Positions 1 to 64,000 of a stretch of DNA of 64,000 nt are shown here, in pieces (the stretch's first letter is position 1; each line of letters begins with the position of its first letter). The stretch lies in contig JAJJXM010000028.1 in assembly GCA_024516155.1 (NCBI GenBank), forward strand, positions 372,001 to 436,000, read 5' to 3'. This DNA is from Pyronema omphalodes. Its lineage: Eukaryota > Ascomycota > Pezizomycetes > Pezizales > Pyronemataceae. The translations under genes were made by a program, and so were the position numbers. The notes under the pieces are model-generated. The model saw nothing but the letters and a program-made list of their open reading frames with translations, made no database searches and was not told the origin of the DNA.

Positions 1-2154
1 TGCGACGCCAATGCCATCGATTTTTACTACTGATACCTTACGTTGTTCCTAACTCTCAACTTGCTTTTAGTCTCCATTTGACGTCGTAAAAGTTGTGAGG
101 CGGATGACCTGTATCGCTGATCCCCTTTGGCATTCCGAGTTCGCAAAAGCACGGCAATCACTACCGTGGCACGTTTTCTTCTAATGATTTGGAAGTTTCA
201 TCACCGGAATGCAACGTTGAATGAACAGACTTGGCACCTTGTCAAATTTCTATGATGGTTTTCCGTAACTACCAATTCTGGTGCTATCTGATGGAATCAG
301 TAATGCGAGCGGCTTGTCAAGACCACAACGCAACCACAACGCAACCACCACTTTACTCCACTACTTCGGTATTTGATCCAGCAATCGGTAGCCATCATAA
401 TAATCCGATTGCACGTTTTTTTTTATATCAAAATCCGCCGAGACAAGGAAGGTACTGTCATCGATAAGCTACGTAGAAGCCGAAGAACCCATTACGAAGC
501 ACGGCGTTTAAGACTTCCCGCTATACCATAGTAGCATCACCGCTTGATAGTCCGTAAAACAGCCATACCATTTAATGGTCAACCATGGCGAAGAAGAGTA
601 CACCGGTGAAAGGGCGTATGAAGTAGAGTTAGAAGATCGACCTGTCAGCACCATAAATAATCTACAACATTGCTTGAGACTTATCCAGTTATAAATTTAT
701 AAACGACCCCGCAAGACAGCCGGGGGGAGGGGGGGGGGGGGGGGGTATCATTCATATGAAGCCACTGTAGTATCCCTCACAGAAATTAGCCAACATTACT
801 CTAGCTGCTAGCAATCCAAAACCATCATCCACGTTATTTTCCTTTTCCATAATTTTCTTAACGAAACCAAGATAATACTTCAGATTGATTTCGCCGCATC
901 TCTTCTTTGAATCGCTTGACTGCAGATCACATTACCGACACCGCCGACGAGTCACGAATCTCACAGCAAAAAGGAAACCCCCAAAACCAAAGCCCAAAAA
1001 CCAAAACCCCAAAACCAAACCCCAAACCAAACAAGGTGAATCCCCGAATTCAAAAACCATCCAGTTATTTAATCCCCAGCTCTAAGCTATCCACATAACC
1101 GCACATTCCGAAAGAGAACTTTCCTCCGCATATTTCATTCCAGTGATTTCCCATCGACCTGAATTCCCGGTCACTGTTCGTGCCTAGATCTACTCCTGTC
1201 CTGCTTTGATGTAGTTTAAGTAACGAATAACGAGGAACTAATAACCTCCGGGCTCTACTGGCTCTTCAGGCTTATGATTTCTCCAATCGTTAAGCTTCGT
1301 TAAACTTTGTTAAACTGAACTATTATTCAGAAGTTTCGTTATTTGTGTTTCGGGATTCTACGCTCCGGAGAGATTTCTTGAGGGCCGAGGATGTAATGGA
1401 CCTAATGGTATGCGTGACTGTATGCAGAATAGTATGCATAACGGTATACGTGACTATATGCATAATAATATAGTATTATTCAGCACATCAATTCGCCGTG
1501 TAGACCAAGATCAAAACTCTCCATGCTCCGTCCAAGACCGTGTGGCATTCTAGTCCAGACCGCATTCCATGATCCCGTCCTGTCCGCGGTGAAGGGAAGC
1601 CGTAGCATGGAAGTCCAATGCGGTGAGCCCAGCTGGACCAGTAAACTATACCGGACCATGGAAGACAGGACCATGGGATACGGGAGGACAGTGGGGATGT
1701 AGCATCTGACTGTCTGACTGTCTTGACACTATATATTGGAAGGCGTAAGTCATCCGCATTTCATGCGACGTAAACCCCGACAAGAAATTTTTGAAATGCA
1801 AAAAGCTCAGGGATACCAAAAATGTCCAGGTTCAAGAAGAATGAAATTGACGGTGAAGAGAAACTTTTGGAAACCAAAAACAAATACAGAGTAGGTACAA
1901 TGGAATGTTTGAAGAATATCATTCAAGATGTTGGAAGCAAAGGCATATATGGTAAAAAAAAACGTTGATATAAGGAAACGAAAAAGTCATTTATTTTCTA
2001 TTTTTACAGTTATCGTTCAGACACGATGTAAGACAATTTCAACAAGGCTTCATTAAAGTGAATACAAAAAACACCATCGAGAGTACAAAAAAACCAGAAT
2101 TTCCAAACAAATCAAGCCGTAATAGTAATATACTCACTCATACACCCGCGAACA

Positions 2155-3559
2155 TTAGTAAATCGACGAGCCCTTCTGAAGCAAAAAAGAATTGTAATGT
2201 TCAAGGGTAGGAAGGAGCTTCCTTTGCCCGATATGGACCTTTGCTCGGCCATATACTCCTTTCCGTTCAAGATCTTCGATGGTATTCCTTGGACATACCA
2301 TTTTGCCACCACTGTACCTGTTTCTGGTCTGCAAGAGTTTATCCCCACAGCCATGATCATTCCTAGTATGATTGATGCTTGGGAGTTTTTGGAATCTCTG
2401 GGCCAAATCAAACGTTCTCAAAATAACCCAATCCCTCTTATTGGCTGTCAAATATCCATTTTCAGGATGCACTGCACATGGTATGCAAATGACTGGCAGC
2501 TTCCAGTATGTAATCCCAAACTGGGTGGACGCTCGGAAACATCTGATATCATCGACGGTGGTCGTTTTTATTGGAAACGGTTTTTTAGTGATGATAGCCT
2601 CGATTCCTTTTCCAGATGACATGATCCGAAAATACACGTTGCGGATACTGAACTTGAACTTCGAATTGACGTGTGCCGCAATTGCGTAGTTCCAGATATC
2701 TTCGCAATCTTCAGGCGAATAAGAAAGCTCGTCGGCTTCATCCTGTAGGATGATCCGTTTGAGCGGTTTCTTTTCGTAGGATATCACTAGAGCGTTGAGG
2801 TCCTGATTTATTTGGAATAATGTTAGCTGTCAATTTCATTGAGGAATCTTGATAAAAAATACTGGATACATACCTCCCAAGCTCTGATATTGTGAAAATC
2901 CATCTGAAGCGGATATACGTGCTTTCTTATCGCGTAGTCGGCATCTTCCACCGTGTCCAAGAAATGAAAGCCAATGGGGATGGTGTGCTGGAAGGCTTCT
3001 TGATCATACATGATGCTGTCTCTTGTGGCGGAAATTTGGACCGTACATACAGGGCGCGTAACCTCCACCCACATATATTTTATGCAAGCACCTGACATAA
3101 AATCATGAAGCCACCTCCATCGCTTTTCTATTTCCTCCTTGGAGTGGCAAAAGGATATGTCTTCTGGCGGGTATAGATGATTCTCCTCCCTCAACGAGAC
3201 TTCGCATTGAGGCGTTAGATCGATGCACTCAAGCATGACAAGGTCAGTGTATTTATGTTGCAAATTTCTTGATGGCTCTCTGTTGAGACTTTGCAATTCA
3301 TTCAGGATTTTCTTCAGACTGGTCAGCATCATAGGTCGTACACGATTGGCCATTTGAAGCCAAGAAACACACAGACAACTCAATATGGATCATGGGAACT
3401 CACTTCAAAATCCTCATCCCATACCCCAGAAATCTGAAGTTGGCGTCCAATGCCCCATTCGTTTAGAAGATATCGCAGATGATTATCTTCGCGTTTCTTG
3501 TTCTGGACCATGTAATCTACGTTTACCTCCAAAAGGTGTCCTTGAGACAGTGCCATCAT
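2155..3559 (-). CDS. Orphan family protein, copy A (three exons, 413 aa)
   Basis: Spliced model: complement of join 2155..2802, 2874..3311, 3404..3559 (216+146+52 codons including the stop). Introns have GTATGT..CAG and GTGAGT..AAG ends; the second acceptor follows a GCTGAC branch-like site. The start is an ATGATG at 3559, chosen because an in-frame stop lies just upstream. I recognise no domain, signal peptide or membrane segment. Visible traits are a charged, W-rich centre (KRWRWLHDFMSG), a conserved FHFLDTVEDADYAIRKH stretch, a CIPCAVHPEN motif and an invariant C-terminus ending FLLQKGSSIY. Copies at 24141 and 27022 have exactly the same exon lengths for exons 2 and 3. About 12 residues differ from copy C. 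Intact frames in three copies argue that it is, or recently was, a real protein. Function is unknown. Confidence 0.75.
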
Positions 3560-3599
3560 ATATATCGCTCAACAATTCCGTAGTGAATGCTTCCTGCAG

Positions 3600-4330
3600 T
3601 TATATCTGGAGTTCTAGCACTCAACGTCAGTAGGGTAAGGAAGCAGCCCAGAGGAAGTGCACACATACCAAGCAGATGATTCCAGGCAATCTATTCCCAA
3701 TAAGCAAGTTGTTATTGAACCGTGAAGTAGCCGAAAGATCAGATTCACAACAGTCAATGCCGGATGCACGAATCGATTCCTGAAATTATATCTGGGATTC
3801 TAGCACTCAACGTCAGTAGGGTATGGCGGCATCACAGAGGAAGTGCACACATACCAAGCAGATGATTCCAGGCAATCTATTCCCAACAAGCGAGTTGTTA
3901 TTGAACCGTGACGTAGCTGAAAGACGAGATTGGTAACAGTCACTGCCGAATGCACGAATTGATTCCTGAAATTATATCTTGGGTTCTAGCACTCAAAGTC
4001 AGTAGGCTAAGGAGGCAGCCCAGAGGAAGTGCACACATACCAAGTAGATGGTTCCCAGCCAATCTATTCCCAATAAGCAAGTTGTTATTGAACCGTGAAC
4101 TTTCCGAAAGATCAGATTTGCAACAGTCAATGCCGGATGCACGAATCGATTCCTGCAAATATATCGGGGGTTCTAGCACTCACGTCAGTAGGATAGAGAG
4201 GCAGCCCAGAGCAAGTGCACACATACCTGGATTGTTCCTAGCCAACGTATCTTGAATAAACAAGACGCGATGTTCTTGGACCGTTATGTAGCTGAAAGTC
4301 GGCATGCTTAACCGTCGATCAAGGCTGGAC
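3600..4330 (-). repeat. Tandem array of about 185 bp exon+intron-like units in the leader of orphan gene A
   Basis: Four clear units start (plus coordinates) near 3612, 3796, 3983 and 4170, spaced 184-187 bp. A more diverged copy lies at the promoter-distal end. Read in gene direction, each unit begins with an intron-like block of about 54 nt: GTATGTGTGCACTTCC, a CTGAC branch-like site, and a TAG acceptor. A block of about 130-133 nt follows and ends at the next GTATGTG. The exon-like blocks are not multiples of three, so they are more likely leader than coding. Orphan copy C has two such units and copy B has one. Confidence 0.75.
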
Positions 4331-4683
4331 TGCGGACGATGGAAATGTCACCAAAAGGCGTGGAGATGTGGAAGGGCTACAAGACAAAGGAGAGGAGTAT
4401 GATACAGAGCATATGGAGGTGGTATATGTATAACAAGCGGCCAATTACTATTCTTTAACCGCACTAGTTCAGTATTGTCTGCATACATAGGTACCTAATG
4501 TAACTAGAGAGATATATTCCAATCAGCAATCTCATCGCATAAAAATATCGCCGTTGGATAGTAAAGAAAATATTTCAAGTTGTACAACCTCTTTAGACAT
4601 GCGAAATTTTTGTTACGGTAACCATTTACAGATGTCAAATGTTTTACAATAACAAAGCATTGACCGGTGCACTACATTTTCGA
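4331..4683. other. Non-coding part of the left repeat arm
   Basis: Upstream flank of orphan gene A. It matches about 26340-26640 in inverted orientation (for example the string containing gcggttaaagaatagtaatt on the right). No gene is seen here. Confidence 0.5.
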
Positions 4684-4691
4684 AAGACCAG

Positions 4692-5588
4692 CAGAGTTCG
4701 GCACGGTCCGTCTGGTCCCATCCTGTAGGAGGACCAGGACCGACCATCCTGGGGGCACCATGGACGGGACGGACCGCGGGTGACCGTGGGTGACCGTGGA
4801 TGACCTCGACTATCGCCACCACCGGTTACTCGCAAACGGCGGTTTTTTACTACGACTTATGGTGTTTTGCTTAGATCATTTCGATGCATCGCACAAATTA
4901 AAGTCAGCTATATGAAATTTCTCGTAAAAATCAAAACTATGCTGATGAATAAGTATGCTACTTCTGCCCCCACGAAAATGCATTCTTGCCCATCCCTCTC
5001 GAATGAAAACGACTTTTGAGAGGACAGGCAGGATGTTCTGCTCCTGATCTGAACAGGTGTAGAGGACGGCGACGAAAATATTGGTATATTCTTGCTCTTC
5101 TGGGAATGGAGTGCTGGCTGTTGATGTTCGACTTCAACGGTAATGAAAAAAGTGGAAAATTCCTGCAGGTAGAAAAAGGAAAGGTGGAAGATGGAATGTG
5201 AAGGATAGAAGAAATATTTATAGCGGGATCCCACTTTACTAAGAAATAAAAAACTACATCAAGCTACCATAGACGGTCAAATTATTGCTGGGTGGAGCGT
5301 GCACCTGCAGTGGAGTGTAAAAGTATTACTAAAGTGCAGCATACTACGGTGCTGAAAACGTTGCTGCTGCGGCCCATAATGTCTGGCAAACTTGAACCAA
5401 TCGTCCACTGCAAACTCGCTCCCTGAAACTCACGGTGCTGCCGTCACACGCCGTCCTGTCCGGTCTTTTCAAGTTTGCGGACGCGACAGGACCACATAAT
5501 GACCGTCCGTCCAAAGTTGTGGACGGGACCGGACGACCAATGTGGTTCCATCCGGTCCGCCGTCCTGAACGGACCGTGCCGAACTCTG
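4692..5588. mobile_element. Non-autonomous hAT-type element (897 bp) with TIRs and 8 bp TSD
   Basis: The ends are inverted repeats. The left end reads CAGAGTTCGGCACGGTCCGT, and the reverse complement of the right end gives the same first 19 bases. The flanking 8-mers are aagaccag (4684-4691) and aaaaccag (5589-5596), a target-site duplication with one mismatch. The homologous arm near 26290 has the empty site (reverse complement cgaaataccag). TIRs starting CAG with 8 bp TSDs are characteristic of the hAT superfamily. No ORF inside resembles a transposase, so it is a deletion derivative or MITE. The interior is rich in GGTCC/GGACC words. Confidence 0.85.
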
Positions 5589-6583
5589 AAAACCAGTTGT
5601 TGCAGAATACGAAAATATTCCTGATCACACTACCATTTAGACATTACGCAACATCTATCTCACGAATACACTTTAGACCCCATCTTCTAACGCGTGACAT
5701 ACATATTTATCGAAAGTCTCTTTGCCTCAACGATAACATGTTAAACCCGTCAGGTTACGCCTCTGAATTCATTTTCCACCCCCATATTCTTTACAACTGC
5801 GCATACTATCACAGCCGCAATAAATCTCTCCGTGCAATATAATCCTGCCACAAAAAGCCAGAACCTAGAAGTCTTTATACACCAGTCGAATTTTACAATA
5901 CCCATAAATCCCAACTCCAAACATATGTTTTACACACCGAAACCTTTCTACCAAAGCATCATATTTCGCCTCCAAGTACCGTCTAATTACCGTCCAAGTA
6001 TAAACAGAAAGCACCAAAAAAGAACCAAACAACAAACCCCGATATAAAACAACAAAACCCATAAAACTCTCTCCAGACCTCATATCTCAGTAGCCAGAGA
6101 GAACAAAAACATGCAACAAGCGATACTTGACAAATATGTATCATAAATTACAATCCACAACAAAACACAATCGAAAAAAAAAATTACCACATGAATCCCA
6201 ACCCCTCTTTCCAGCATCCCAAAAAACAACATCCATCACCCATCCACCACCCATCCATCACCCATCCACCATTCATCTCAGCCATCCACCACCCATCCAG
6301 AATTCCCAGGTCCCAGGTCTTCTTTACGATTCCACGACCAAAATCCCAAACCCTAGTCCTGACTTCCGATCCTTTAAATCCCCAAACTCCGGTGCTGTAA
6401 TGTCACCACCAAAAAGTTCAAACAAGCCGGCATGATCAAGAATATTCTATGAGCTGTTTATAAAAACTAAAGCGCTTGAATTAGGGAAAAGATAAAACTC
6501 AGGGAAAAGAAACCAGGCAAAACGGCTCCAACCAGGGCAAAGAACCCAGGTAAAAAATAAAGGGCCATACAAAACAAATGACA
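5589..6583. other. Intergenic: end of left arm, then A/C-rich low-complexity DNA
   Basis: Up to about 5955 this is repeat arm (match to 25928-26280). Beyond it the sequence is A/C-rich, with catcacccatccacc-type simple repeats at about 6225-6300. No gene is seen; ORFs here are composition artefacts. Confidence 0.5.
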
Positions 6584-6683
6584 GGCTCGAACCAGGATTT
6601 GAACCTGGGACCTCTCGCAAGCCGATGTATCGGTGCTTAGAGTGGAACCCTAAGCGAGAATCATACCACTAGACCATCCGAGC
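6584..6683 (-). tRNA. tRNA-Pro(AGG), copy 1, with 28 nt intron
   Basis: On the minus strand the mature exons form a complete cloverleaf: acceptor GCTCGGA/TTCGAGC, discriminator C, anticodon stem CTCGC/GCGAG, loop TTAGGGT with AGG at 34-36, and T-arm CCAGG-TTCAAAT-CCTGG. A 28 nt intron follows position 37. The intron contains ACTCTAAG, which can pair with the anticodon loop as expected for nuclear pre-tRNA. Mature length is 72 nt. Downstream T-runs can terminate Pol III. The exons are identical to the other three tRNA-Pro copies. Confidence 0.95.
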
Positions 6684-6757
6684 TATTAGTATACCCAGCA
6701 TTCAGCGTTACATTCTAGTGCTAATAATAAAAAAATAAGCGGGTGAAGTGAGGATGG

Positions 6758-6908
<151 letters not shown>

Positions 6909-8500
6909 AATTTTTAAACGTTCCCAACCGTAAGGTTATTACGTGGTCTGTGTTAATATACATCTTTAAGCCCACGTCTATAATCCCGGAGGCCTACTGG
7001 GAAAAGCCCCAGAGCATTCTTGGTTGTTTGGAGCCACAGCACCCTGGTATTCTCCATGCTGATTTTCTTTCGCCTCAATATAGTCTAGAGCCCTGTACGC
7101 TCGGTTATTATTCCGCTGGGTTGTTTCCATTGTTCCTTTTCCCTTGCCTTCATATCTAAATCCTCCTTTTTTTTTTTCTTTTTTTTTTTCTTTTCTTGGG
7201 ACTTATACTGCTACCGGGCTGCTTCTTCCCCTTCTCTCCTCCTCCGTCCCTCCGCCTGCTCGGGCCTTCTTTTTTAGCCTTCGCGCTGCCCCCCCCCCCC
7301 CCCCCCTTCCCTCTCTCTCCGGGCTATTGTCGTCGATGTGATTAGTTGAAGGTGGTCGCTGCCTAAGACAATCTGAACATTAATTCCTCGACTTTAGACA
7401 ACCTCTACCCAGGTTTTCTTTGTGGGGGTAGTTGTTGGTTTAGGTTGGTAGGTGCTCTTTCCCCTCCTACCAGTCTTTGTTGTTGGGGTTTTGTCGTTAT
7501 TTGGAGCTGCCTTTTGGTTGCTTGTCTGTTCAGTTCTCCTCTTCCTCTGCATTGTCTTGCCTTCCACTGTCTTCCAACCTACGCCATCAGCAGGGGCAGT
7601 GCTAGGGATGTCCGGTAGAGTTGTGGCCTGAGGAAATACTTGAGGAAGAGAGTTGGGTGATGTTTCGGTTGTAGTTATGGCAGGTGAACGGGGGATACTG
7701 GATCTTTGGAGCATCAAGTTCATGCTGGGCAGTGGTAGTTGCATGTATGGAGTGTATCAGGCTATGCTCTGGTGATGCATTGCGTCGTTGTTTGTGGGTT
7801 ATCAGTCGTTAGGTTGTGTCAGATGTTGGTTCGATGTCTTGACGGCCGGAGCGTCGCTTTCTCTTAGTGTTCGGGTTGAGAACGGTATCCAAGACATCTT
7901 GGATATCATTGTGGACGATGGACAGTTGCATTGTCATCTCCTCCATTGCGACAGAGGGGGCGATGATCTCCGGGGATGGAGAGGCTGACTTTTCTGTGTG
8001 CTCGTTAAATTTCTGAGTGAGGGCGTCCGTAGCAACTTTTCGGGCTGCCGTTTCTGTTCTGGAGGCCTCATTCGGCTTGCGCAGTATATTGTTCTCAAAC
8101 AACACTGCCACCATCTGCTTCAGGGTACCTTGTAACATATTGTTGAAGTGCTCGAGGTGTGAATTTTTACATCTATCCATCCAGACAATTGTATCACGGA
8201 TTTCTTTTGTTGCCTCCGAGGTACTATGGATATAACTCAACATTTCTTTTATCGTTTCAGCGCATAGGATCGCTATTTTCGCCAGGGCCACGTTCGCTGT
8301 CCGGACAGCCTGTGAGTGTGAGGCCTCATCATCGTCATCTCCATTGTTGCTTCCATCGAGAGTAGAATTGGTCTCATCGAGAGGAAGGTCTCCAAGTGCG
8401 TGAAAGACGTTGCCTGACTGTTTCAGTCGTGCGGCGTTATTCGAGCGGTGTTTCCGTGGCATTTCGCTTGCTCAGGAAAGCCAAGAGGAATGGTAACTCT
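6909..8500 (-). mobile_element. LINE-like non-LTR retroelement, internally deleted, no reverse transcriptase
   Basis: It runs on the minus strand from an ORF1-like reading frame (start 8462) to a 3' end with an (AATC)n tail. Sequence 7032 to about 7900 matches the plus strand at about 63150-64000. The last stretch, including a gctctggggc motif and ggttgggaacgtt before the tail, also matches 62160-62260. No reverse-transcriptase or endonuclease frame is present between ORF1 and the tail, so it is a deleted or non-autonomous copy. It contains an 18-C run (7289-7306). The 5' boundary is uncertain (about 8470-8610). A possible short target duplication, aggatgg, flanks both ends (about 6752 and 8600) but is too short to rely on. 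Confidence 0.7.
7394..8462 (-). pseudogene. Broken ORF1 of the LINE-like element
   Basis: A 217-codon frame (8462 down to 7809) begins MPRKHRSNNAARLKQ and is acidic and then helical. It stops at a TAA where the related copy at 63149 has CAA. After a further 2 nt difference the homologous protein continues in another frame (7744-7394) with the basic, Thr/Pro/Lys-rich tail KGKSTYQPKPTT-like and ending KKTWVEVV. The pattern (coiled-coil-like N-terminus, basic C-terminus, no enzymatic motif) suits an ORF1 nucleic-acid chaperone of a non-LTR element. No CCHC knuckle is visible. The nonsense change plus frameshift indicate a dead copy. The family assignment is inference from the tail, truncation and repeat structure. 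Confidence 0.65.
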
Positions 8501-18797: not shown

Positions 18798-19621
18798 GGA
18801 CCCAAGCCTGGAAAAAGCCGATATGCGCAGCGACTCGACGCTATAGCTATGTAGCTGCTATAGCTAGATTGAAGTCTCCAGATTGAGGATAGATGAAGTC
18901 ATGCAACTTTCAGCGGGGATAAACAAAATGGGGTTTCAGTTTTTTTTTTTTTCTTTAACTTATGTTCGGCTCTGATCTGTTTTTTTTAAGGGATATATGG
19001 ATAAGGGGGTTCTAAGGGTATCTTGGTTAATTCTTTTGTTGGGGTTCTTTTTATGTTTTTTTTTTTTGTTTACTTTCTGTTTTTTTTTATCGATTTATAT
19101 TTCTTCTTTCTGTTTTTTTCTGTAGTTTTTAGGTTCCTTTTTCGCCTTTTTTTTTATGGGGATTTTTTTTTCCTTCTCTTTTATCATCATTGAATCGTGA
19201 TTTTGCTTTGATATACGTGAAATTATGTGATATATATTAAAAAGTTGTGAGGAAACCCGATAGTACAGCGGCAAGCAGCAAGCGGCTAGAGGCTAGCCAA
19301 GACACCCATCACCCGCGACCAAGGATCTGGATCTGGATATGTATGGTTATGCCGATATGTATACGCGCGGCTATACAGCCTCCAACGTCGACGGTTCTTC
19401 ATCGTATCTCATTCATCAGCTCATACTCCCTTTACCCATCCCATCCAATCCCCCATCTCCACTTATGACCCCCCCACCAAACCGGAAAAAATTCCCGCAT
19501 AACCACATGCAACATAACATCATATATCCCATATTCTATCAACAACAACCTTCCCTTCCCTCCCTTCCCTCCCTCCCTTCCCTCAAAACGAAAGAGCGCC
19601 AGGAACCAAAACAAAACAAAA
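18798..19621. other. 3' flank of the importin gene, T-rich
   Basis: Runs of T on the plus strand (18940-19190) are consistent with a 3' UTR or terminator zone. C-rich low-complexity DNA (cccttccctccc) lies just before the tRNA at 19622. No gene is seen. Confidence 0.4.
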
Positions 19622-19725
19622 GGCTCGAACCAGGATTTGAACCTGGGACCTCTCGCAAACTATAGTGTAGCTGATACTTAGAGTTAAATCCCTAAGCGAG
19701 AATCATACCACTAGACCATCCGAGC
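19622..19725 (-). tRNA. tRNA-Pro(AGG), copy 2, with 32 nt intron
   Basis: Exons are identical to copy 1 (acceptor GCTCGGA/TTCGAGC, anticodon AGG). The 32 nt intron after position 37 is the longest of the four and differs from the others except for the ACTCTAAG pairing segment. It points away from copy 3, which lies 712 bp further on the opposite strand. T-rich sequence follows its 3' end on the minus strand. Confidence 0.95.
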
Positions 19726-20437
19726 TGTGACTGTTGTTTCGGGGGGGCGTTTATGGGGTTGTGGCAGAGGATGGGATTGGGGGTGAGGCTGGGGGGGATG
19801 GGGGATGAGGCATGGAGGATGGGGGATACTCATTATACATATTATGGCCTCTAGATAATCGGCTACGGTTAAGTTTTTGGGGTATGAATTAAAGGTTTTG
19901 GGGTATGTATCTTTTGCTTGTAGTAAAGTCAAGTTAAGTCAAGTTAAGTCTATTTTTACAAGTTCCCGTAAGCAAACTGGTATAGGGGTGGGGGTGGGGG
20001 GGGGGGGGGGGGTGGGAGTGAGAGTGTTAGGGAATAACATAATATTATCTAACCCACAGAGGTATGAAATATACGTTCAATCGTGTAATTTCTTTTCAAT
20101 CAATCACACCCTGGGGTACTACAAATATTCGCCATCTAAAATCTAAAATCCACAATTCACAATTCACAATCTACAACTATTATCAGTTCTAATCTTCAGT
20201 GATGATTAACTTATCTATATACATAGCATAGTGCATAACCCGGCCCAGCCCAGTGCAGTGAAGCTCAGTCCAGTCCAGTACAGTCCATAACACCCCTAAA
20301 ACCCATCCACAAGAATCTCTCCAACTCAAAGCCCAAGCCAATAACCCTTTATCTCCCCATTCACCCTCCCTTCCTCCTCCTGACGTATGGTCCGAAATTT
20401 AGCGATCAAAAACACCAACACCCCTGTCAAATAACAA
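19726..20437. other. Spacer between divergent tRNA-Pro copies 2 and 3
   Basis: Holds the 5' flanks of both tRNA genes, a G-rich block (19741-19830), a 17-G run (19996-20012) and cagtccagtccagtacagtcc-like short repeats near 20265. No protein gene is seen. Confidence 0.4.
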
Positions 20438-20534
20438 GCTCGGATGGTCTAGTGGTATGATTCTCGCTTAGGGTTGACTCTAAGTACCGATTACGGTTTG
20501 CGAGAGGTCCCAGGTTCAAATCCTGGTTCGAGCC
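20438..20534 (+). tRNA. tRNA-Pro(AGG), copy 3, with 25 nt intron
   Basis: Complete cloverleaf with anticodon AGG at 20470-20472 and a 25 nt intron after position 37; mature length 72 nt. A and B box sequences are intact and a TTTTT terminator follows within a few bases. Exons are identical to the other three copies. Confidence 0.96.
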
Positions 20535-20760
20535 TTGTTTTTGGGGTTTTGATGGAAGGGAGAGGCTTTTTTTTGTGGGAGGCTTGAAGGGGTTGAAGGG
20601 TTGGTGGGGTTTGTTGATTTCGGTGGGGTGGGGGAGAGATGGTATTATTTATTGGAGGAGGGAACAAGAACGTTTCGCAGTGACAGAATGATATAGAGTA
20701 GGCAGAATGAAGTGTATGAAGAATATACTAGGCAAGATCTTGGAGTAAGATGATTACTTA
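20535..20760. other. Short spacer between tRNA-Pro copy 3 and the TIR element
   Basis: G-rich flank of the tRNA followed by AT-rich DNA. No feature is seen. Confidence 0.3.
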
Positions 20761-22822: not shown

Positions 22823-24074
22823 TATGCTTATGCAATTGCGAAAGCGTACTCGGCGTTATTGATATGGTTCGCTCAGTGCAACTAGGGAGATTAATTCTTC
22901 GGAGGTATTACGCAGGTTCTCTTCTTGGGAATGTTTGGTGGATCATATTATCGGCATTGAAAGAGGAAGCACATATGAGGAAACAAAAGGAAGAAACAAA
23001 AGCTAAAGCTTAAGATGAAGTAATTAAAATTATCACTGTGATGCTGGAGGTATTCAAGTGTTTAATCCTTAGCTATGTATGTAGGTGTGTAGGGACAAGC
23101 GGGACTTTAATCTTAGTTTGTACACTCGACTTCCGTTTCATATAAGTTTGAATTTGTGGCCATGCCTACTTGTGCCCTGCTTGGGTGCATGTCTCCATTA
23201 CCTTTCTTCTGTAAAATATGCTACTCACAGTCTGTCACTTATTTTCTTCTCTGTCTTATAGAATTTGGAGAGAAGTTTTGTCACGCGTTTTTGAAGCTAC
23301 TAAGTTTTGTTTTCTGATTTTCTCTTCGTTTTTCTCATTTTGGCAGCTTTTAGAGATGGTCTACCGTGCTCTGATAAAAAAAGGTTTACCGATAATACTG
23401 AAGCTGGGGGCTTTTGTACATTGTTTAACTCAATGTGTGTGTTGTTAAAGCCCCTTCTTCTCATGCCAAGATTGTGTTTTTCAGATGGCTGTATTGAGGC
23501 TGTAATGGTCCACTCTTAGAACGGGGATTCACGGTGCTATCAAAAGTGCCATGTTGAATACCGTATTAGCACTATTTACTAGATTACTTACCGGCTATGC
23601 CATTAGTACTTGATAAAATATGCTAGATATCCATCTCATGATGAACATCCGTGATTTGGATACCATCTACCGTCTGTGGTTCAATGTATGAATGCTTAGA
23701 TCTGGGTGTGAACCGGAATATTTTCTTATGCAATGTGCCTTTGTACTTATGTTAGATATGTAAACAATATGGAACTAGTGAGTTTTAAGAACAACCGCTG
23801 ACCTCGTACCATGCACACCCCACCAAATTCATTTACTATGTATCATCATCCTCTATCGTGCAACCTTTCCACCATCTCCACGTTTTTTGGTCCACAATCT
23901 TGTCATCGCCATCATCATCGCCGTATTCCACAGTTCAGCCTTGATTGACGGTTACGCAGACCGATCTCCAGCTACGTCACGGTCCGATAGAATTTTGCTT
24001 GTTAAAGATAAATTAGCTACGACCCCCCTGAGTATGTCTACACTTCCTCTGCGCTGCCCCCTTCCTTACTAACG
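22823..24074. other. Non-coding 5' flank of orphan gene B
   Basis: No gene is seen in 22823-23790. From about 23790 the sequence resembles the leader upstream of copy C (ccaccatctccacg, cagccttgattgacggtta). It contains a single copy of the leader module: intron-like GTATGTCTACACTTCC...TAG at about 24033-24085. Confidence 0.5.
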
Positions 24075-24140
24075 TTGAATTCTAGAAGTCCCGATATCTT
24101 TGCCAGAATTATCCACCCCAAAACTGTTGATCTATCGACA

Positions 24141-25514
24141 ATGACACTGTCTCAAGGACACCTTGTGGAGGCAACCGTAGATTTTCAGATTCGGCACATG
24201 GAATATGATCGGTGGGTGATTGGACGTCAATTTCAGATTTCCGGGGTGTGGGATGATGACGTTGGGGTGAGTTTACACGACCCCTGTTTCATTGACTTCG
24301 TTTTTTGTGGCTCACGTTGTCCAACCAATTACGATTTATGATGCTGATCAGTCTAAAGGAATTGATGAGTGTGGTTAAATTTGTTACTGAACAACTACCA
24401 CATAGATGTCAGCATAGATATCTCGAGCATGGTCTACTTGAGTGCATTGATCTGGACGCCGACCAGGAAGCCTTTTTGAGCAGGGAAAATGATTCGTGTC
24501 CGACAAAAGGCCTCTTCTTTTGCCAATCCAAGGAGGAAAAAGAAAAGAGATGGAAATGGTTTCACAGTTTCATGTCGGGAAAGTTCATGACATACATGTG
24601 GGTGCAGGTTACGTGCTGTTTCTGTAGGATCCATATTTCCGCCACGAGGAATGACATGATGTACGACCATGCTATCTTTGCAATTCCAATTCCAATTTGC
24701 TTTCACTTCTTGGACACTGTAGAGGACTCCGACTACGCGATAAGAAAGCACGCACATCCGCTCCAGATGGATTTTCATGATATAAGAGCTTGGGAGGTAC
24801 GTATCCAGTATCTTTACCAATATTGACCTATGAAATTCACAGCTAACATAATCCCGAATAAATCAGGACCTCAGAGCTATTGTGAAATCGTTCGGAAAGA
24901 AACTGCTCAAACGTATCATCCTACAGGACGAAGAGGATAAAATACCATATTCGCCTAAAGATGGCGAAGATCTCTGGAACTATGCAGTTGCGGCACATGT
25001 CAATCCCAAGTTCAAGTTCAGCATCCGCAACGTGTATTTTCGGACCATGTCATGCAGAACTGGAATTGAGGCCATCGTAACCCAAAAACCGTTTCCAATA
25101 AGGACTACCACCATCGATGATATTAGATGTTTCAGAGCGTCTACCCAGCTTGGGATTACATATTGGAAGCTGCCAGTCGTTTGCATACCTTGTGCAGTGC
25201 ACCCTGAAAATGAAATTTTGAAAAACAATAAGCAGGGTTGGGTTATTTTAGGAAGCATCGATCTGGACCAGAGGTATCAAGAACGTCAAAACCTTAAGCA
25301 TAGGTTGGATGACATGGAAAGACAATACCAAGCATTGTCAATCAAAGAGGAATACAGACCGCGTAGAATGGTACGTCCCAAGAATACCATTCGAGATCTT
25401 GTTGTCAAAGGAGTATACGGGGACGAAACGATTGATATCAGACAAAAGAAGCTCCTTCCCACTCTGGATCATTATGATTCTTTTTTGCTTCAGAAGGGCT
25501 CGTCGATTTACTAA
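24141..25514 (+). CDS. Orphan family protein, copy B (three exons, about 403 aa)
   Basis: Model: join 24141..24266, 24359..24796, 24867..25514. The start at 24141 (MTLSQGHLVEA) aligns with the starts of copies A and C; an in-frame ATG at 24075 would add 22 residues. Exons 2 and 3 have exactly the lengths of the other copies (438 and 648 nt) with the same intron phases. Donors are GTGAGT and GTACGT; the second intron has a GCTAAC branch site. Roughly two thirds of residues match copy C by eye. The frame is open throughout, so substitutions have accumulated without disrupting the protein. Best conserved are FHFLDTVED, KFKFSIRNVYFR, GITYWKLPV.CIPCAVHPEN and the C-terminus LLPTLDHYDSFLLQKGSSIY. 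The segment at about residues 330-365 is almost unalignable but equal in length. No known domain is recognised. Confidence 0.75.
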
Positions 25515-25927: not shown

Positions 25928-26689
25928 GGGGTTTCGGTGTGTAAAACATATGTTTGGAGTTGGGATTTATGGGTATTATAAAATTCGATCGGTGTATAGA
26001 ATATTCTGACTTTTTGTGGCAGGATATTATATTGCATGGATAGATTTATTGCGGCTGTGATGGTATGCGCTCTTGTAAACAAAAATATGGTGGTGGGGAA
26101 CGAATTCAGAGGCGTATCCTGATGGGTTTAACATGTTGTTGTTGAGGGAAAGGAATTTTACGGTAAAAGCATCAATAACGCGGTACAAGGTGGGGTCTAA
26201 AGTGTATTTGCGAGATAAATGTTGCGTAATGTCTGAATGGTAGTCTGATCAGGAATACTTTTTTATTCTGTAACGGCTGGTATTTCGAAAATGTAGTGCG
26301 CCGGATAATGCTTAGTTGTTGCTAAACATGTGACGTCTTTAGATGGTTGCCGTGACAAATATTTCGCAGTTGTACAACTTGAGATACCCCCCGTTACTAC
26401 CAAATAGAAATGTATCTATGTGATGGGATTTCTTATTGGAATGTGTCTTTCTACTTATGTATGTATGCAGACAATACTGAACTAGTGCGGTTAAAGAATA
26501 GTAATTGGCCGCTTGCTATACATATACCACCTCCATATGCTCTGTATCATACTCCTCTCCTTTGTCTTGCAGCCCTTCCACCATCTCCACGCCTTTTGGT
26601 GACATTTCCATCGTCCGCAGCCCAGCCTTGATTGACGGTTAAGCATGCCGACTTTCAGTTACATAACGGTCCAAGAACATCACATCTTG

Positions 26690-26995
26690 TTTATTCAAGA
26701 TACGTTGGTTAGGAACAATCTAGGTATGTGTGCACTTCCTCTGGGCTACCTCCCTACTATACTGACGTGAGTCCTAGAACCCTAGATATAATTGCAGGAA
26801 TCGATTCGTGCGTCCGGCATTGAATGTTGCGAATCTCGTCTTTCGGAAAGTTCACGGTTCAATAACAACTCGCTTGTTAACTGGGAATAGATTGCCTGGA
26901 ATCATCTGCTTGGTATGTGTGCACTTCCTCTGGGCTGCATCCTTACCCTACTGACGTTGAGTGCTAGAACTACAGATATAACTGCAGGAAGCATT
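26690..26995 (+). repeat. Two-unit leader array of orphan gene C
   Basis: Two intron-like blocks beginning GTATGTGTGCACTTCCTCTGGG (truncated here to its core) start at about 26725 and 26911, spacing 186 bp. Each has a CTGACGT branch-like site and ends CTAG before the exon-like block. This is the same module as in gene A (four or more units) and gene B (one unit). Confidence 0.7.
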
Positions 26996-27021
26996 CACTA
27001 CGGAATTGTTGAGCGATATAT

Positions 27022-28426
27022 ATGATGGCACTTTCTCAAGGACACCTTTTGGAGGTAAACGTAGATTACATGGTCCAGAACAAGGAACGCGAAGATAATC
27101 ATCTGCGATATCTTCTAAACGAATGGGGCATTGGACGCCAACTTCAGATTTCTGGGGTATGGGATGAGGATTTTGAAGTGAGTTCCCATGATCCATACTG
27201 GGTTGTCTGTGTGTTTCTTGGCTTCAAATGGCCAATCGTGTACGACCTATGATGCTGACCAGTCTGAAGAAAATCCTGAATGAATTGCAAAGTCTCAACA
27301 GAGAGCCATCAAGAAATTTGCAACATAAATACAGTGACCTGGTCATGCTTGAGTGCATCGATCTAACGCCTCAATGCGAAGTCTCGTTGAGGGAGGAGAA
27401 TCATCTATACCCGCCAGAAGACATATCCTTTTGCCACTCTAAGGAGGAAATAGAAAAGCGATGGAGGTGGCTTCATGATTTTATGTCAGGTGCTTGCATA
27501 AAATATATGTGGGTGGAGGTTACGCGCCCTGTATGTACGGTCCAAATTTCCGCCACAAGAGACAGCATCATGTATGATCAAGAAGCCTTCCAGCACACCA
27601 TCCCCATTGGCTTTCATTTCCTGGACACGGTGGAAGATGCCGACTACGCGATAAGAAAGCACGTATATCCGCTTCAGATGGATTTTCACAATATCAGAGC
27701 TTGGGAGGTATGTATCCAGTATTTTTTATCAAGATTCCTCAATGAAATTGACAGCTAACATTATTCCAAATAAATCAGGACCTCAGCGCTCTAGTGATAT
27801 CCTACGAAAAGAAACCGCTCAAACGGATCATCCTACAGGATGAAGCCGACGAGCTTTCTTATTCGCCTGAAGATTGCGAAGATATCTGGAACTACGCAAT
27901 TGCGGCACACGTCAATTCGAAGTTCAAGTTCAGTATCCGCAACGTGTATTTTCGGATCATGTCATCTGGAAAAGGAATCGAGGCTATCATCACTAGAAAA
28001 CCGTTTCCAATAAAAACGACCACCATCGATGATATCAGATGTTTCCGAGCGTCCACCCAGTTTGGGATTACATACTGGAAGCTGCCAGTCATTTGCATAC
28101 CATGTGCAGTGCATCCTGAAAATGGATATTTGACAGCCAATAAGAGGGATTGGGTTATTTTGAGAACGTTTGATTTGGCCCAGAGATTCCAAAAACGCCA
28201 AAGCATCAATCATACTAGGAATGATCATGGCTGTGGGGATAAACTCTTGCAGACCAGAAATACACACAGTGGTGGCAAAATGGTATGTCCGAGGAATACC
28301 ATTCAAGATCTTGAAGGGAAAGGAGTATATGGCCGAGCAAAGGTCCATATCAGGCAAAAGAAGCTCCTTCCTACCCTTGAACATTACAATTCTTTTTTGC
28401 TTCAGAAGGGATCGTCGATTTACTAA
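27022..28426 (+). CDS. Orphan family protein, copy C (three exons, 413 aa)
   Basis: Model: join 27022..27177, 27270..27707, 27779..28426; exons of 156, 438 and 648 nt, identical in length to copy A. The start is the first ATG of ATGATG, with an in-frame TGA a few codons upstream. About 12 residues differ from copy A over 413. Eight of these fall in a window of about 60 residues near the C-terminus (around residues 330-390), which is also the region most diverged from copy B. No known domain, signal peptide or transmembrane helix is visible. The composition (many W, H, D and R, few low-complexity runs) is that of a folded soluble protein. It could be lineage-specific or cargo of the surrounding repeat. 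Confidence 0.75.
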
Positions 28427-30625
28427 TGTTCGTGGGTGTATGAGTGAGTATATTACTATTACGGCTTGATTTGTTTGGAAATTCTGGTTTTTTTGTACTC
28501 TCGATGGTGTTTTTTGTATTCACTTTAATGAAGCCTTGTTGAAACTGTCTTACATCGTGTCTGAACGATAACTGTAAAAATAGAAAATAAATGACTTTTC
28601 CTTTTCCTTATATCAACGTTTTTTTTTACCATATATCCCTTTGCTTCCAACATCTTGAATGATATTCTTCAAACATTCCATTGTACCTACTCTGTATTTA
28701 TTTTTGGTTTCCAAAAGTTTCTCTTCACCGTCAATTTCATTCTTCTTGAACCTGGACATTTTTGGTATTCCTGAGCTTTTTCCATTTCAAAAATTTCTTG
28801 TCGGGGTTTACGTCGCATGAAATTCGGATGACTTACGCCTTCCAATATATAGTGTCAAGACAGTCAGACAGTCAGATGCTATAGTCCCACTGTCCTCCCG
28901 TATCCCATGGTCCTGTCTTCCATGGTCCGGTATAGTTTACTGGTCCAGCTGGGCTCACCGAATTGGACTTCCATGCTACGGCTTCCCTTCACCGCGGACA
29001 GGATAGGGTCATGGAATGCGGTCCGGACTAGAATGCCACATGGTCTCGCACGGATCATGGAGAGTTTCGGTCTTTGTCTACACGGCGAATTAATGGGCTG
29101 AATAATACTATATTATTATGCATACCAGTACTCATGCTGTTACAGCCTCGGCCCCCAAGAAAGGTATCCCGGGCGTGAAATCTTGACACAAACAAAGGGG
29201 AAGCTTCTAAATAATAGTGCGGGGTTAATGATTCAGAAAACCTATGAATCTGAGTATTGTTAATAGAGCTGTCAAGACGCTTGGTATGAGTAGATGATGC
29301 CACCAATGATTTATGTTGATGTAATGCTGATTGATGGGTCTACTAGATCTTCTTTGTGAGCACCTTCACTTGTGTACAATTCTTCCGACTTCGCAATGGT
29401 TGACTAATGAATGGGATGGCTGTTCCAAGGATTAATAAGCGGTGAAGCTATTAAGGTATATCGGTAACTCTCAAATTTAGTGCTTCGTAACTGGTGTTCT
29501 TACTTCAGCGCGGTTTGATAGAGTGTCTGATAGGGTTGCTATAATGGTTACTGAGTGCTGATTTAAACTTCAAAATAGTGGAGTAAAGTGGTGGTTGCGT
29601 TGTGGTCTCCGAAAGCGCTCTCAATGTTTCTATCAGCTAGCACTAGAAACGGTAAGTTATAAAGCTCAAACCTTGATATATACGCAGTTTTGAATCGATT
29701 TGTTGAAGCATACGCTGGATGAGATCTAAGGGTTCATGCTGGATAAGCTAAAAACTTTAGGGATGGTAGTATGGAATAAGTGACATCGCATGATCTAATA
29801 TAAACACATTTAGTAGCCCTGCTATATGACTTGTATGTGCTGCTTGTTGGCATAAAGGGCAGGGGGGGGGGGGGATTTCGTCTGGTAGTGAGCACAATAG
29901 TAGCGTTTCATAAACAGATGGTGCACATACATAATGTCCAATCCTGCTCTAAGAGATGTAGTTCCAGTTTGACTTTTCGAACTAAACAAACAATTCCTAA
30001 GAGAAAGACGAAGATATGCACACTCCTGCTATTGCTTTTTTAACACGGCCATTATGAGCTTGCCTCTGAAGCCAAATTGGACAAGTTGTAGGTTCCCATC
30101 CGTAAATAATGAACCACATTGGTTTGATATGCATATGCCGTTAAATTATAGTCTGAACAATCTTTTTTTTTCGTCTAGTACCCATGTATACAATATGTCT
30201 CTATACCCAAGCTTCCCAGGTTCTCCAAAATCGGGTTGAGATAGAGTCCTAAAAGGGATAAGATTCTGGATTCTACATCAGGAGCGGGAATCCCGGTAGT
30301 CTCCTAATAATGACAAGGTCTCTCGGTTCGGACGGGATTCCAAGATTTGGACCTTTTTTCTATAAGTATTTTGCAAGATCCTACCACGACAGACGACAGA
30401 GAAAAAAAGAGAAGAGAGGGGAAGGGGTGACAACCGGTAGCCCGGGTGGGTAGAAATTGGCAGACAATGAGGAAGTCGCCAAACGCGGGAAGAGGCAGAT
30501 GAGTGGTAAAGGAATTTCACGTAATTCCGGCCAGAAATTCATAAGACAAGGGTATCTTGGCCATATCTCTATTGATATCTCAGCCAGTATCCTCATTAAT
30601 TAAACCCCCCCCTCCCCCCTTCTCC
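28427..30625. other. 3' flank of orphan gene C and downstream AT-rich spacer
   Basis: Up to about 29100 this is shared with copy A's 3' flank, including a GGTCC/GGACC-rich stretch at 28880-29060 resembling hAT-element DNA in composition. From 29100 to 29290 it matches 25750-25920 (bases after copy B). A 13-G run lies at 29862-29874. The end (30590-30625) is C-rich and precedes the CSM3 stop. No gene is seen. Confidence 0.5.
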
Positions 30626-31802: not shown

Positions 31803-32839
31803 GGTGGTGAGGTTGAACAGGTACGTGGAATCAGGGCTGAGACGGACGCGTTCGGCGCGTAGAGTGGGTGCGACGCGACCGGGGAGGGCTAACCACTTGG
31901 GAATGGGTTATGTGGTGCACCATATACGCGAGACTGCGAGACTGCGACGGAGAGCTTAGCTTTAGACAAAATTCGACCAAAGTTAAGGCGATAGAGACGA
32001 ATAGATAAATTGACATAAAGCAATGGGCTTGGACACTGGAGACACTTATTAAAAATTATATATGGATTTTTTTTCTTCTTGAGTTGGGATTCCATGAGGC
32101 CAGTCTACCATAGACCATCAATTCGGAATGATAAGCTACCCTAATAAGGGTTAACTTTGTGCTTGAATATGCTTGATGGAATCCTCATCAAAAACCGGAG
32201 ATCTGATTCATGGGTATAACGTTTCATTCCCATCTTTCATCATGGATCAAATAGATCTTGGGGTTCGTATCAAGTTATTCTTCACACCTCCTTGCCACAG
32301 ATGTTTAATTATAACATTCTTCCTCCATTGGCTCCTTCACCTCTATGGTGTCTACACAGATCCACCCGGACTCCGGGGGACGTGAGGGGACATGTGAGTT
32401 TCCTTCTTTAAGTATGCTACAATTGAACAACAAACTCCTCGAGAAATCTATTCACCTTCAATGTAGCCCTTTATTTCATTGTTGATATTTTTCTGCTAAA
32501 AATTTATGAACTCAAGATCGAGTTTCAAGAATTATGGATGCGCTACCAAGTAACCCGCTTTTTTGATTTTGGGTCTGGCATAAGCATCGTTCTCCACCCC
32601 AGACTTTGATGATACACGGACTTCACTGTAACTGATCACAAAAGCGAACATCTTAACCATGCATTACAATACAAATATACATGCCAGATATTATGGACCT
32701 TCACCGATGAGCTACTGCAGAAGTCCATCGAGGTCAGAGACACTCTCTTGAACTGACAAATGGGTTGATTCGAGTTTGGTAGAAACTTCCACTTACCAAG
32801 ATTATATAATGTTATAGTTTACCTTGTGTAACATCAACA
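31803..32839. other. CSM3 upstream region and spacer
   Basis: The first few hundred bases hold the CSM3 promoter (not resolved to sites). The remainder is AT-rich and no gene is seen. Small ORFs lack any recognisable motif. Confidence 0.35.
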
Positions 32840-32936
32840 GCTCGGATGGTCTAGTGGTATGATTCTCGCTTAGGGTTCACTCTAAGTACCAGCACTAGTT
32901 TGCGAGAGGTCCCAGGTTCAAATCCTGGTTCGAGCC
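32840..32936 (+). tRNA. tRNA-Pro(AGG), copy 4, with 25 nt intron
   Basis: Same mature sequence as the other three copies: acceptor GCTCGGA/TTCGAGC, anticodon AGG, T-arm CCAGG/CCTGG. The 25 nt intron carries the ACTCTAAG pairing element but otherwise differs. A run of eight T follows the 3' end, a strong Pol III terminator. Confidence 0.96.
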
Positions 32937-33440
32937 GTCTTTTTTTTCTCATCTCAGGATCAGATAGTCATATCTTTTGCGCACGGGCCTTGCTCCCCCC
33001 AGCGACTCTTACGAGGATGATGATGCATGGAATGCTTCACAACGTTTTTCATCAGAGTAAGTAACAATGTTTTCTGTTCTGAAACTTTTGTCGAGCATTC
33101 TTAGGAAAAACAACGCACTGCATACTTAGTGGGTGTCTTCCATAGCTTGGCCGTAGCCAACACAATTCGAACATAGCCATATAACAGCTATAACTTCAGA
33201 GGTTTTCTATGAAAGGGTGAAGAATCAAGAGCCCTATAACAAATGGCTAATTCTACCCATCATCGCCAAAAGATATTTTCTGCCCCATGACAGATGATGG
33301 TCTTGGCATCTATCATTCTATGGAGGTATAAAAGCCGAGCGCAGTGATACAACAGAGCGTCTAACTTGCCCTGACACCCTATGTATGTGTAGGGTATTGT
33401 TATGGAGGATATGATAGGAAAAATATGGTAAAAAAAAATA
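32937..33440. other. Spacer between tRNA-Pro and tRNA-Glu
   Basis: AT-rich with no ORF of note and no repeat recognised. Contains the terminators of both tRNA genes. Confidence 0.3.
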
Positions 33441-63139: not shown

Positions 63140-64000
63140 CGTATTGACTTGCACTTCGTTCTCAACCCGAACACTAAGAGAAAGCGACGCTCCGGCCATC
63201 AAGACATCGAACCAACATCTGACACAACCCAACGACTAATGACCCACAAACAACGACGCAATGCATCGCCAGAGCATAGCGTGATGCACTCGAGACATGC
63301 AACCACCGCCGCCCAGGACAAACTTGATACTCTAAAGATCAAGTATCCCCCATGTTCACCTGCCATAACCCCAACCGAAACATTACCCAACTCTCTTCCT
63401 CAAGTATCTCCTCAGGTCACAACTCTACCGGACGTCTCTAGCACTGCCCCTGCCGAAGGCGAACGTTGGAAGATAGTGGAAGGCAAGACAATGCGGAGGA
63501 AGAGGAGAAGTGAACAGACAAGCAACCAGAAGGCAGCTCCAAATAACGACAAAACCCCAACAACAAAGACTGGTAGGAGGGGAAAGAGCACCTACCAACC
63601 CAAACCAACGACTACTCCCACAAAGAAAACCTGGGCAGAGGTTGTCAAAAGTGGAGGAATTAATGTCCAGATTGTCTTAGGCAATGACCACCTTCAACTA
63701 ATCACACCGACGACAAGAGCCCGAAGAGAGAGGCAAGGAGGGGCAGCGCGAAGGCTCAAAAAGAAGGCCCGAGAAGGTAGAGGGACGGAGGAGGAGAGAA
63801 GGGGAAGAAGTAGCCCGGCAGTAGTATAAGGTCCAAGAAATAAATAAATAAAAAAAAAAAAAGGGATTTAGATGTGAAGGGAAGGGAAGAGAAGAGGAAT
63901 GAGGTGAACGACTAGGCGGAATAATAATTGAGCGTACAGGGCTCTAGACTATATTGACGCGAAAGAAAATCAGCATGGAGAACACCAGGGTGCTGTGGCA
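63140..64000 (+). mobile_element. 5'-truncated LINE-like element running off the window
   Basis: Begins within the ORF1 coding region (homology to 7877 downward on the minus strand) and continues to the window edge through the A-rich block at 63838-63862. It reaches sequence equivalent to 7032 of the other copy (caccagggtgctgtggca). Its tail and any target duplication lie outside the window. 5' truncation is typical of LINE insertions. Confidence 0.75.
63149..63829 (+). CDS. Partial ORF1-like protein of the LINE-like element (C-terminal 220 aa)
   Basis: The frame is open from the truncation point to a TAA at 63827. The natural protein would start further upstream, as in the copy at 8462, so the first residues here (MHF) come from flanking DNA. 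It preserves the region broken in the other copy: NPNTKRKRRSG basic patch, Thr/Pro-rich linker, KKTWAEVVKSGGINVQIVLG, and a basic RRLKKKAREGRGTEEERRGR end. No zinc knuckle, RRM or enzymatic motif is visible to me. It probably encoded an RNA-binding ORF1 protein, by inference from composition and element structure. Confidence 0.6.
   Translation: MHFVLNPNTKRKRRSGHQDIEPTSDTTQRLMTHKQRRNASPEHSVMHSRHATTAAQDKLDTLKIKYPPCSPAITPTETLPNSLPQVSPQVTTLPDVSSTAPAEGERWKIVEGKTMRRKRRSEQTSNQKAAPNNDKTPTTKTGRRGKSTYQPKPTTTPTKKTWAEVVKSGGINVQIVLGNDHLQLITPTTRARRERQGGAARRLKKKAREGRGTEEERRGRSSPAVV

Follow-up and report, generated by a model that had tools for sequence, protein, structure and literature searches.

The 64,000-nt window analysed here, the whole stretch of DNA taken from the soil fungus Pyronema omphalodes, carries three copies (A, B and C) of a gene with three coding exons each, and every copy is preceded by a leader containing one or more short intron-like blocks (Table 1). 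For copy B, our gene model and the deposited protein agreed residue for residue. For copy C, the deposited model (P0003, BZA77DRAFT_294070) is shorter and begins at an inner methionine at position 27570, without the leader. This model also omits 123 nt of copy C exon 3 (28283-28405), a stretch of 41 codons in frame that is bounded by GTATGT and CAG and may represent either an alternative intron resembling an exitron or an error of gene prediction. At the protein level, A and C hardly differ (dN 0.013). By a simple count, dN/dS was 0.37 for A-C, 0.37 for A-B and 0.34 for C-B, values that indicate purifying selection on the coding regions of all three copies, which therefore look like working genes. 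An AlphaFold model had a mean pLDDT of 29.6 and was useless for assigning a protein function.

Table 1. Coding regions and leader features of the three gene copies, in window coordinates
Feature	Position	Strand	Remarks
Copy A coding region	2155..3559	-	3 exons; introns 3403-3312 and 2873-2803; 412 aa counted from 3556
Copy A terminal leader exon	3560..3613	-	reaches ATGATG start; in-frame TGA inside
Copy A leader intron 4, 55 nt	3614..3668	-	GTATGT / CTGAC / TAG
Copy A internal leader exon 3-4, 131 nt	3669..3799	-	between introns 3 and 4
Copy A leader intron 3, 55 nt	3800..3854	-	GTATGT / CTGAC / TAG
Copy A internal leader exon 2-3, 131 nt	3855..3985	-	between introns 2 and 3
Copy A leader intron 2, 55 nt	3986..4040	-	GTATGT / CTGAC / TAG
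Copy A internal leader exon 1-2, 132 nt	4041..4172	-	between introns 1 and 2
Copy A leader intron 1, 54 nt	4173..4226	-	GTATGT / CTGAC / TAG
Copy A exon 0, first leader exon	4227..4395	-	3' part aligns with internal exons; upstream end assumed
Copy B single leader intron, 54 nt	24032..24085	+	GTATGT / CTAAC / TAG
Copy B coding region	24141..25514	+	3 exons; protein identical to BZA77DRAFT_355091 of P. omphalodes
Copy C leader intron 1, 54 nt	26724..26777	+	GTATGT / CTGAC / TAG
Copy C internal leader exon, 135 nt	26778..26912	+	between introns 1 and 2
Copy C leader intron 2, 55 nt	26913..26967	+	GTATGT / CTGAC / TAG
Copy C terminal leader exon	26968..27021	+	reaches ATGATG start; in-frame TGA inside
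Copy C coding region	27022..28426	+	3 exons; 412 aa counted from 27025

Searching the assembly with the protein gave 11 matches, comprising the nine exons of the three copies and two antisense fragments beside A and C. Two public protein searches, which cover only proteins inside one length band, returned the P. omphalodes entries P0001, P0002 and P0003 and one further relative of 155 residues (P0004, source 'jgi'), encoded on a 4,484-base contig that probably comes from a metagenome; copies B and C had no Pfam match. In the searches made, the family appears small and confined to the genus, in keeping with the label 'orphan' under which it had been described. Orphan genes are described as numerous in the genome of P. 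confluens, with many of these showing upregulation in sexual development, and its median 5' UTR is given as 156 nt (PMC3778014).

Copies A (1457-4692) and C (26276-29124) form an inverted duplication about 22 kb apart that is 96.7% identical over 2.4 kb. The two antisense fragments (1834-1983 on the plus strand and 28598-28744 on the minus strand) lie just past the 3' ends of A and C, are 38-39% identical to the C-terminal part of the protein, contain one TGA each, and are perhaps remnants of a further degenerate copy that was duplicated with A and C. Elsewhere in the window, we found another inverted duplication, about 850 bp long (7033-7884 and 63157-63999, 88% identical), and four tRNA-like stretches (6572-6687, 19613-19728, 20437-20542 and 32836-32947) that resemble one another, measure about 100 bp and occur in both orientations. 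A tRNA finder using the bacterial code called one of these four, without an assigned type.

The preliminary description had reported one, two and at least four tandem units of about 185 bp upstream of B, C and A, respectively, spaced at 184-187 bp in A. We confirmed this series, with one intron-like block in B, two in C and exactly four in A, and a donor-to-donor distance of 186 bp all three times in A and 189 bp in C; Tandem Repeats Finder reported a period of 186 with 3.4 copies and 87% matches at 3591-4227 (score 992). The block had been characterized by a GTATGTG donor, a CTGAC branch and a TAG acceptor within about 54 nt. The length (54-55 nt) and the acceptor (seven of seven) held throughout, whereas GTATGTG and CTGAC were each present in six of the seven blocks, with both exceptions (GTATGTC and CTAAC) in copy B. 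The exon-like part had been given as 130-133 nt and not a multiple of three; the three in A agree with the size but the 135 nt in C exceeds it, and divisibility fails for the two of 131 nt but not for those of 132 and 135 nt. The stretch before the first intron of A is a diverged copy of the exon part of the unit. A second AG lies about 20 nt past each TAG (one base further in B) and would give introns of 74-75 nt with internal exons of 112, 111 and 111 nt in A and 115 nt in C, so that the exact acceptor is uncertain.

All 13 splice-signal columns were invariant over the seven blocks, against 36 of the 55 columns overall (hypergeometric P 0.0016, an optimistic value because related columns and copies are treated as independent), and of the 55 cyclic shifts only the true register was fully invariant. 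The block of copy B is 77-83% identical to the other blocks, with its splice signals still intact. Among the units of copy A, the exon and intron parts were 84-91% and 87-94.5% identical, respectively, and these similar divergence rates are what drift with retained splice sites would give. We then considered 264 kb of sequence, consisting of the window and 20 extra stretches (10 of them on the window's own contig) and representing 0.4% of the assembly. On both strands, the strict pattern GTATGT..CTRAC..YAG had 14 donors, seven of which were these leader introns, and five first-order Markov controls gave 0-3 occurrences; the blocks are therefore not due to chance. Four tandem arrays with a period of at least 80 were present in the same 264 kb, with intron motifs in only the copy A leader array; as a control, this sample is small.

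Throughout the 60.8 Mb assembly, the 731-base array region used as a query gave three matches, namely the leaders of A, C and B. A genome-wide query with one unit, which had been proposed as a check, gave six matches, all within the A and C leaders. With up to three mismatches allowed, the initial 20 bases of the intron were found at nine places, consisting of the seven introns and two others at three mismatches, and a reversed-pattern control was found at one place. Since these searches score the best candidates only, distant copies could escape them, but within that limit the three results indicate that the unit is not a dispersed repeat, and the block seems to be confined to these three leaders. 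Wide occurrence of the unit as a satellite unrelated to the gene, which would have told against the preliminary description, was not seen in the assembly; with matches at the A, C and B leaders, a satellite or minisatellite apart from the gene family was not supported by these best-candidate searches. Introner elements are near-identical introns dispersed among unrelated genes. The Pyronema block resembles them in its several near-identical intron copies and differs from them in being found at three leaders only, and within the same limit the assembly searches did not support this explanation.

The array had been placed in a 5' leader, and the blocks do precede the start codon. An in-frame TGA three codons ahead of the first ATG of ATGATG in copies A and C means that the leaders of these two copies add nothing to the protein. 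In the modelled spliced leader of copy B, no in-frame stop occurs from the leader intron to the ATG, leaving 25 open codons without an ATG. The sense strand of the four internal exons contained 0, 0, 0 and 1 ATG, against Markov means of 2.7-4.3. Over ten leader exon parts, we counted 3 ATG and 30 CAT, a contrast that is optimistic in that the copies are related and the outer leader ends are assumed. With C and the other two internal exons of A left out, B and three A parts had 1 ATG versus 15 CAT (P 0.0005), and copy B alone had 0 versus 5 (P 0.06), both P values again being optimistic through the treatment of related copies as independent. Upstream starts do persist in the spliced leaders modelled for A and C, since an ATG in exon 0 would open upstream ORFs of 74 codons in A and 28 codons in C, and the ATG in the internal exon of C a further one of 13 codons.

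Taking these features together, we consider it likely, at a probability of roughly 75%, that the blocks are genuine leader introns that were multiplied by tandem duplication and are spliced like other short fungal introns. Traces of such a duplication were sought in the leader exons by shuffling. For exon 0 against the internal exons, none of 300 shuffles reached the observed score in 8 of 12 comparisons, and 2, 5, 23 and 29 did so in the others; for the terminal exons of A and C against the internal exons, none of 300 did so in all 8 comparisons. The similarity was weak for the terminal exon of copy B, where 0, 239, 15 and 113 of 300 shuffles reached the scores. Because 40-49% of sites differ when exon 0 is aligned with the internal exons at full length, their homology rests on the 3' part. 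An internal exon looks like about 30 nt of the last leader exon joined to the 3' part of exon 0, and such a fusion is expected when a tandem duplication spans a leader intron that was already present. Each unit holds a donor, a branch and an acceptor together with parts of both flanking exons, which fits an internal duplication that included an entire intron.

Under the duplication model, the ancestral leader would have had a single intron, flanked by the first exon and a short final leader exon, the arrangement that copy B still has. A duplication starting inside the first exon, running across the whole intron and ending about 30 nt into the last leader exon would have added an internal exon and one more intron, and unequal recombination would later have altered how many units the A/C lineage carries. 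This model takes the single-block copy B as the presumed ancestral state, the alternative being that its single block is a derived loss, and it places the putative transcription start upstream of the array. The blocks would then actually be spliced, with the pre-mRNA expected to be processed at each unit. Splicing would take out the GTATGT-borne ATG at each donor and leave a leader with few upstream starts, and unit number would therefore mainly alter the length of the leader and the count of splicing events. Intron gain from exonic sequence of the AGGT type was rejected, as each unit contains a full intron that is already present in single-block B. C-to-T repeat mutation (RIP) was not supported as the source of unit divergence, with 58 transitions versus 71 transversions summed over six pairwise comparisons.

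The units of A and C differ more than the sequences around them. The near flanks differ at 5 of 200 sites at 4478-4279 and 12 of 1200 sites at 3609-2410 (1-2.5%), whereas unit 1 of C differs from units 1, 2 and 3 of A at 20, 23 and 21 of 185 sites, respectively (about 11%). The 20/185 for unit 1 of A against 17/1400 for the neighbouring A-C sequence gave a Fisher P of 2e-10, where the latter figure covers these two flank windows only and the outer windows diverge more. Per 100 sites, the outer windows had 6 differences twice at 2409-2210, 18-25 beyond 4479 and 10-18 below 1610, and the sharp rise beyond about 4479 and below about 1610 may reflect recent homogenisation of A and C. Across the last intron and the terminal exon, 2 of 112 sites differ. 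The facing units of A and C therefore lack a simple orthologous relationship: either different units would have been lost in the two copies from an array that was once older and longer, or the array evolves faster than its surroundings. A simple two-parent mosaic of A units as the origin of the C unit was not supported, since the three mismatches it saves were equalled in 1461 of 2000 permutations. As the A/C units diverge more than their surroundings, Pyronema strains may differ in unit count.

A further proposal is that the leader introns are real and that their number is under selection and sets or conditions protein output. Every leader block brings an ATG inside its GTATGT (7/7) that retention would expose, and retained introns in copy A would give ORFs of 14, 32, 6 and 36 codons, the TGA of the last overlapping the ATGATG start; the exonic parts are ATG-poor, and A and C differ in block number despite their nearly identical proteins. 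These features would, however, hold for any leader intron with a GTATGT donor, and the similar exon and intron divergence, with units diverging more than flanks, gives no sign of selection beyond the splice signals, so we regard selection on number as unlikely. The same low credence applies to the idea that the cassette leader is an evolvable dial with which paralogues could be set to different outputs or different responses to splicing efficiency, for example in sexual development, the ATG of a retained intron being what would let splicing efficiency act on translation. In such a dial, recombination would add or remove cassettes faster than the gene changes, each cassette contributing one splicing event and one ATG exposed on retention.

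To a similar degree, we doubt that the array is a relic of an old tandem duplication that is unspliced or lies upstream of the transcription start, with inherited signals and no consequence for the mRNA. The deposited models of B and C, which begin at or after the main ATG, would accord with a relic, but inheritance would hardly keep the signals intact in all seven blocks, including the diverged block of B, or confine the scarcity of ATG to the sense strand. A relic is also opposed by a stretch common to A and C upstream of exon 0, with a TATA-like element and a CT-rich tract, that resembles a promoter and would be one by our inference.

Tandem repeats ahead of genes can serve as promoter or enhancer elements, and a unit of this kind with intron-like letters arising by chance would make the array a transcription-control repeat. 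Neither splice signals in seven of seven blocks nor a strand-specific scarcity of ATG would be expected of such a repeat, and we consider it very improbable. That the units are repeated coding exons for an N-terminal part or a second protein is close to untenable: although one frame is open across most of each internal exon and the second acceptor makes two exons of 111 nt, neither the series 132/131/131/135 nor 112/111/111/115 keeps a frame, dN/dS between the copy A units is 0.60-1.29 over the frames with few changes, and the three internal exons of A have no ATG. We rejected the coding reading on the frame, the in-frame TGA of A and C and these ratios, and an N-terminal extension in A and C is refuted.

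If the units are spliced as leader introns, the three genes would offer a natural series of one, two and four copies of one leader intron, with two of the genes nearly identical. Such a series would be a ready-made test of 5' UTR intron number against expression, and also of the way in which tandem duplication multiplies whole introns outside the coding sequence. Even if their number is neutral, it would still be a clear case of leader intron multiplication.

The array had been presented as having no described fungal counterpart. At the level of mechanism this was too strong, as duplications inside genes are known in which a whole intron is copied together with adjoining exon sequence (Knowles & McLysaght 2006; Gao & Lynch 2009, cited in PMC4974935); the position in a leader and the 1/2/4 series do remain unusual beside the cases described there. 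Tandem exon-intron units in the leader of a protein gene were absent from the literature matches listed, which is weak evidence as the search used narrow phrases in open-licence titles and abstracts. Head-to-tail units of a non-coding exon and an intron occur in the snoRNA host transcripts SNORD116/SNORD115 with IPW exons, as described in PMC8037846, where the introns carry snoRNAs and the transcript is non-coding, whereas the Pyronema introns are 54-55 nt long and a protein gene follows. With introns of this size, and with Rfam giving no match at E values up to 5 for 3400-4800 (copy A leader only), we rejected a snoRNA host-gene array. In the Schizosaccharomyces cases described in PMC3629103, intron number was likewise raised by tandem duplication, but under the AGGT model it is a duplicated stretch of exonic sequence, carrying proto-splice sites, that gives rise to the new intron, while the Pyronema unit already held a whole intron. 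The array is also like the internal duplications as outlined in PMC4974935, in which a pre-existing intron is multiplied by a tandem duplication spanning parts of both flanking exons; the Pyronema array differs from them in that the duplicated exon is leader and not coding and that intron number runs from one through two to four among the paralogues. In sum, the kind of event is known, and its location in the leader of a protein gene and the 1/2/4 series among paralogues are unusual.
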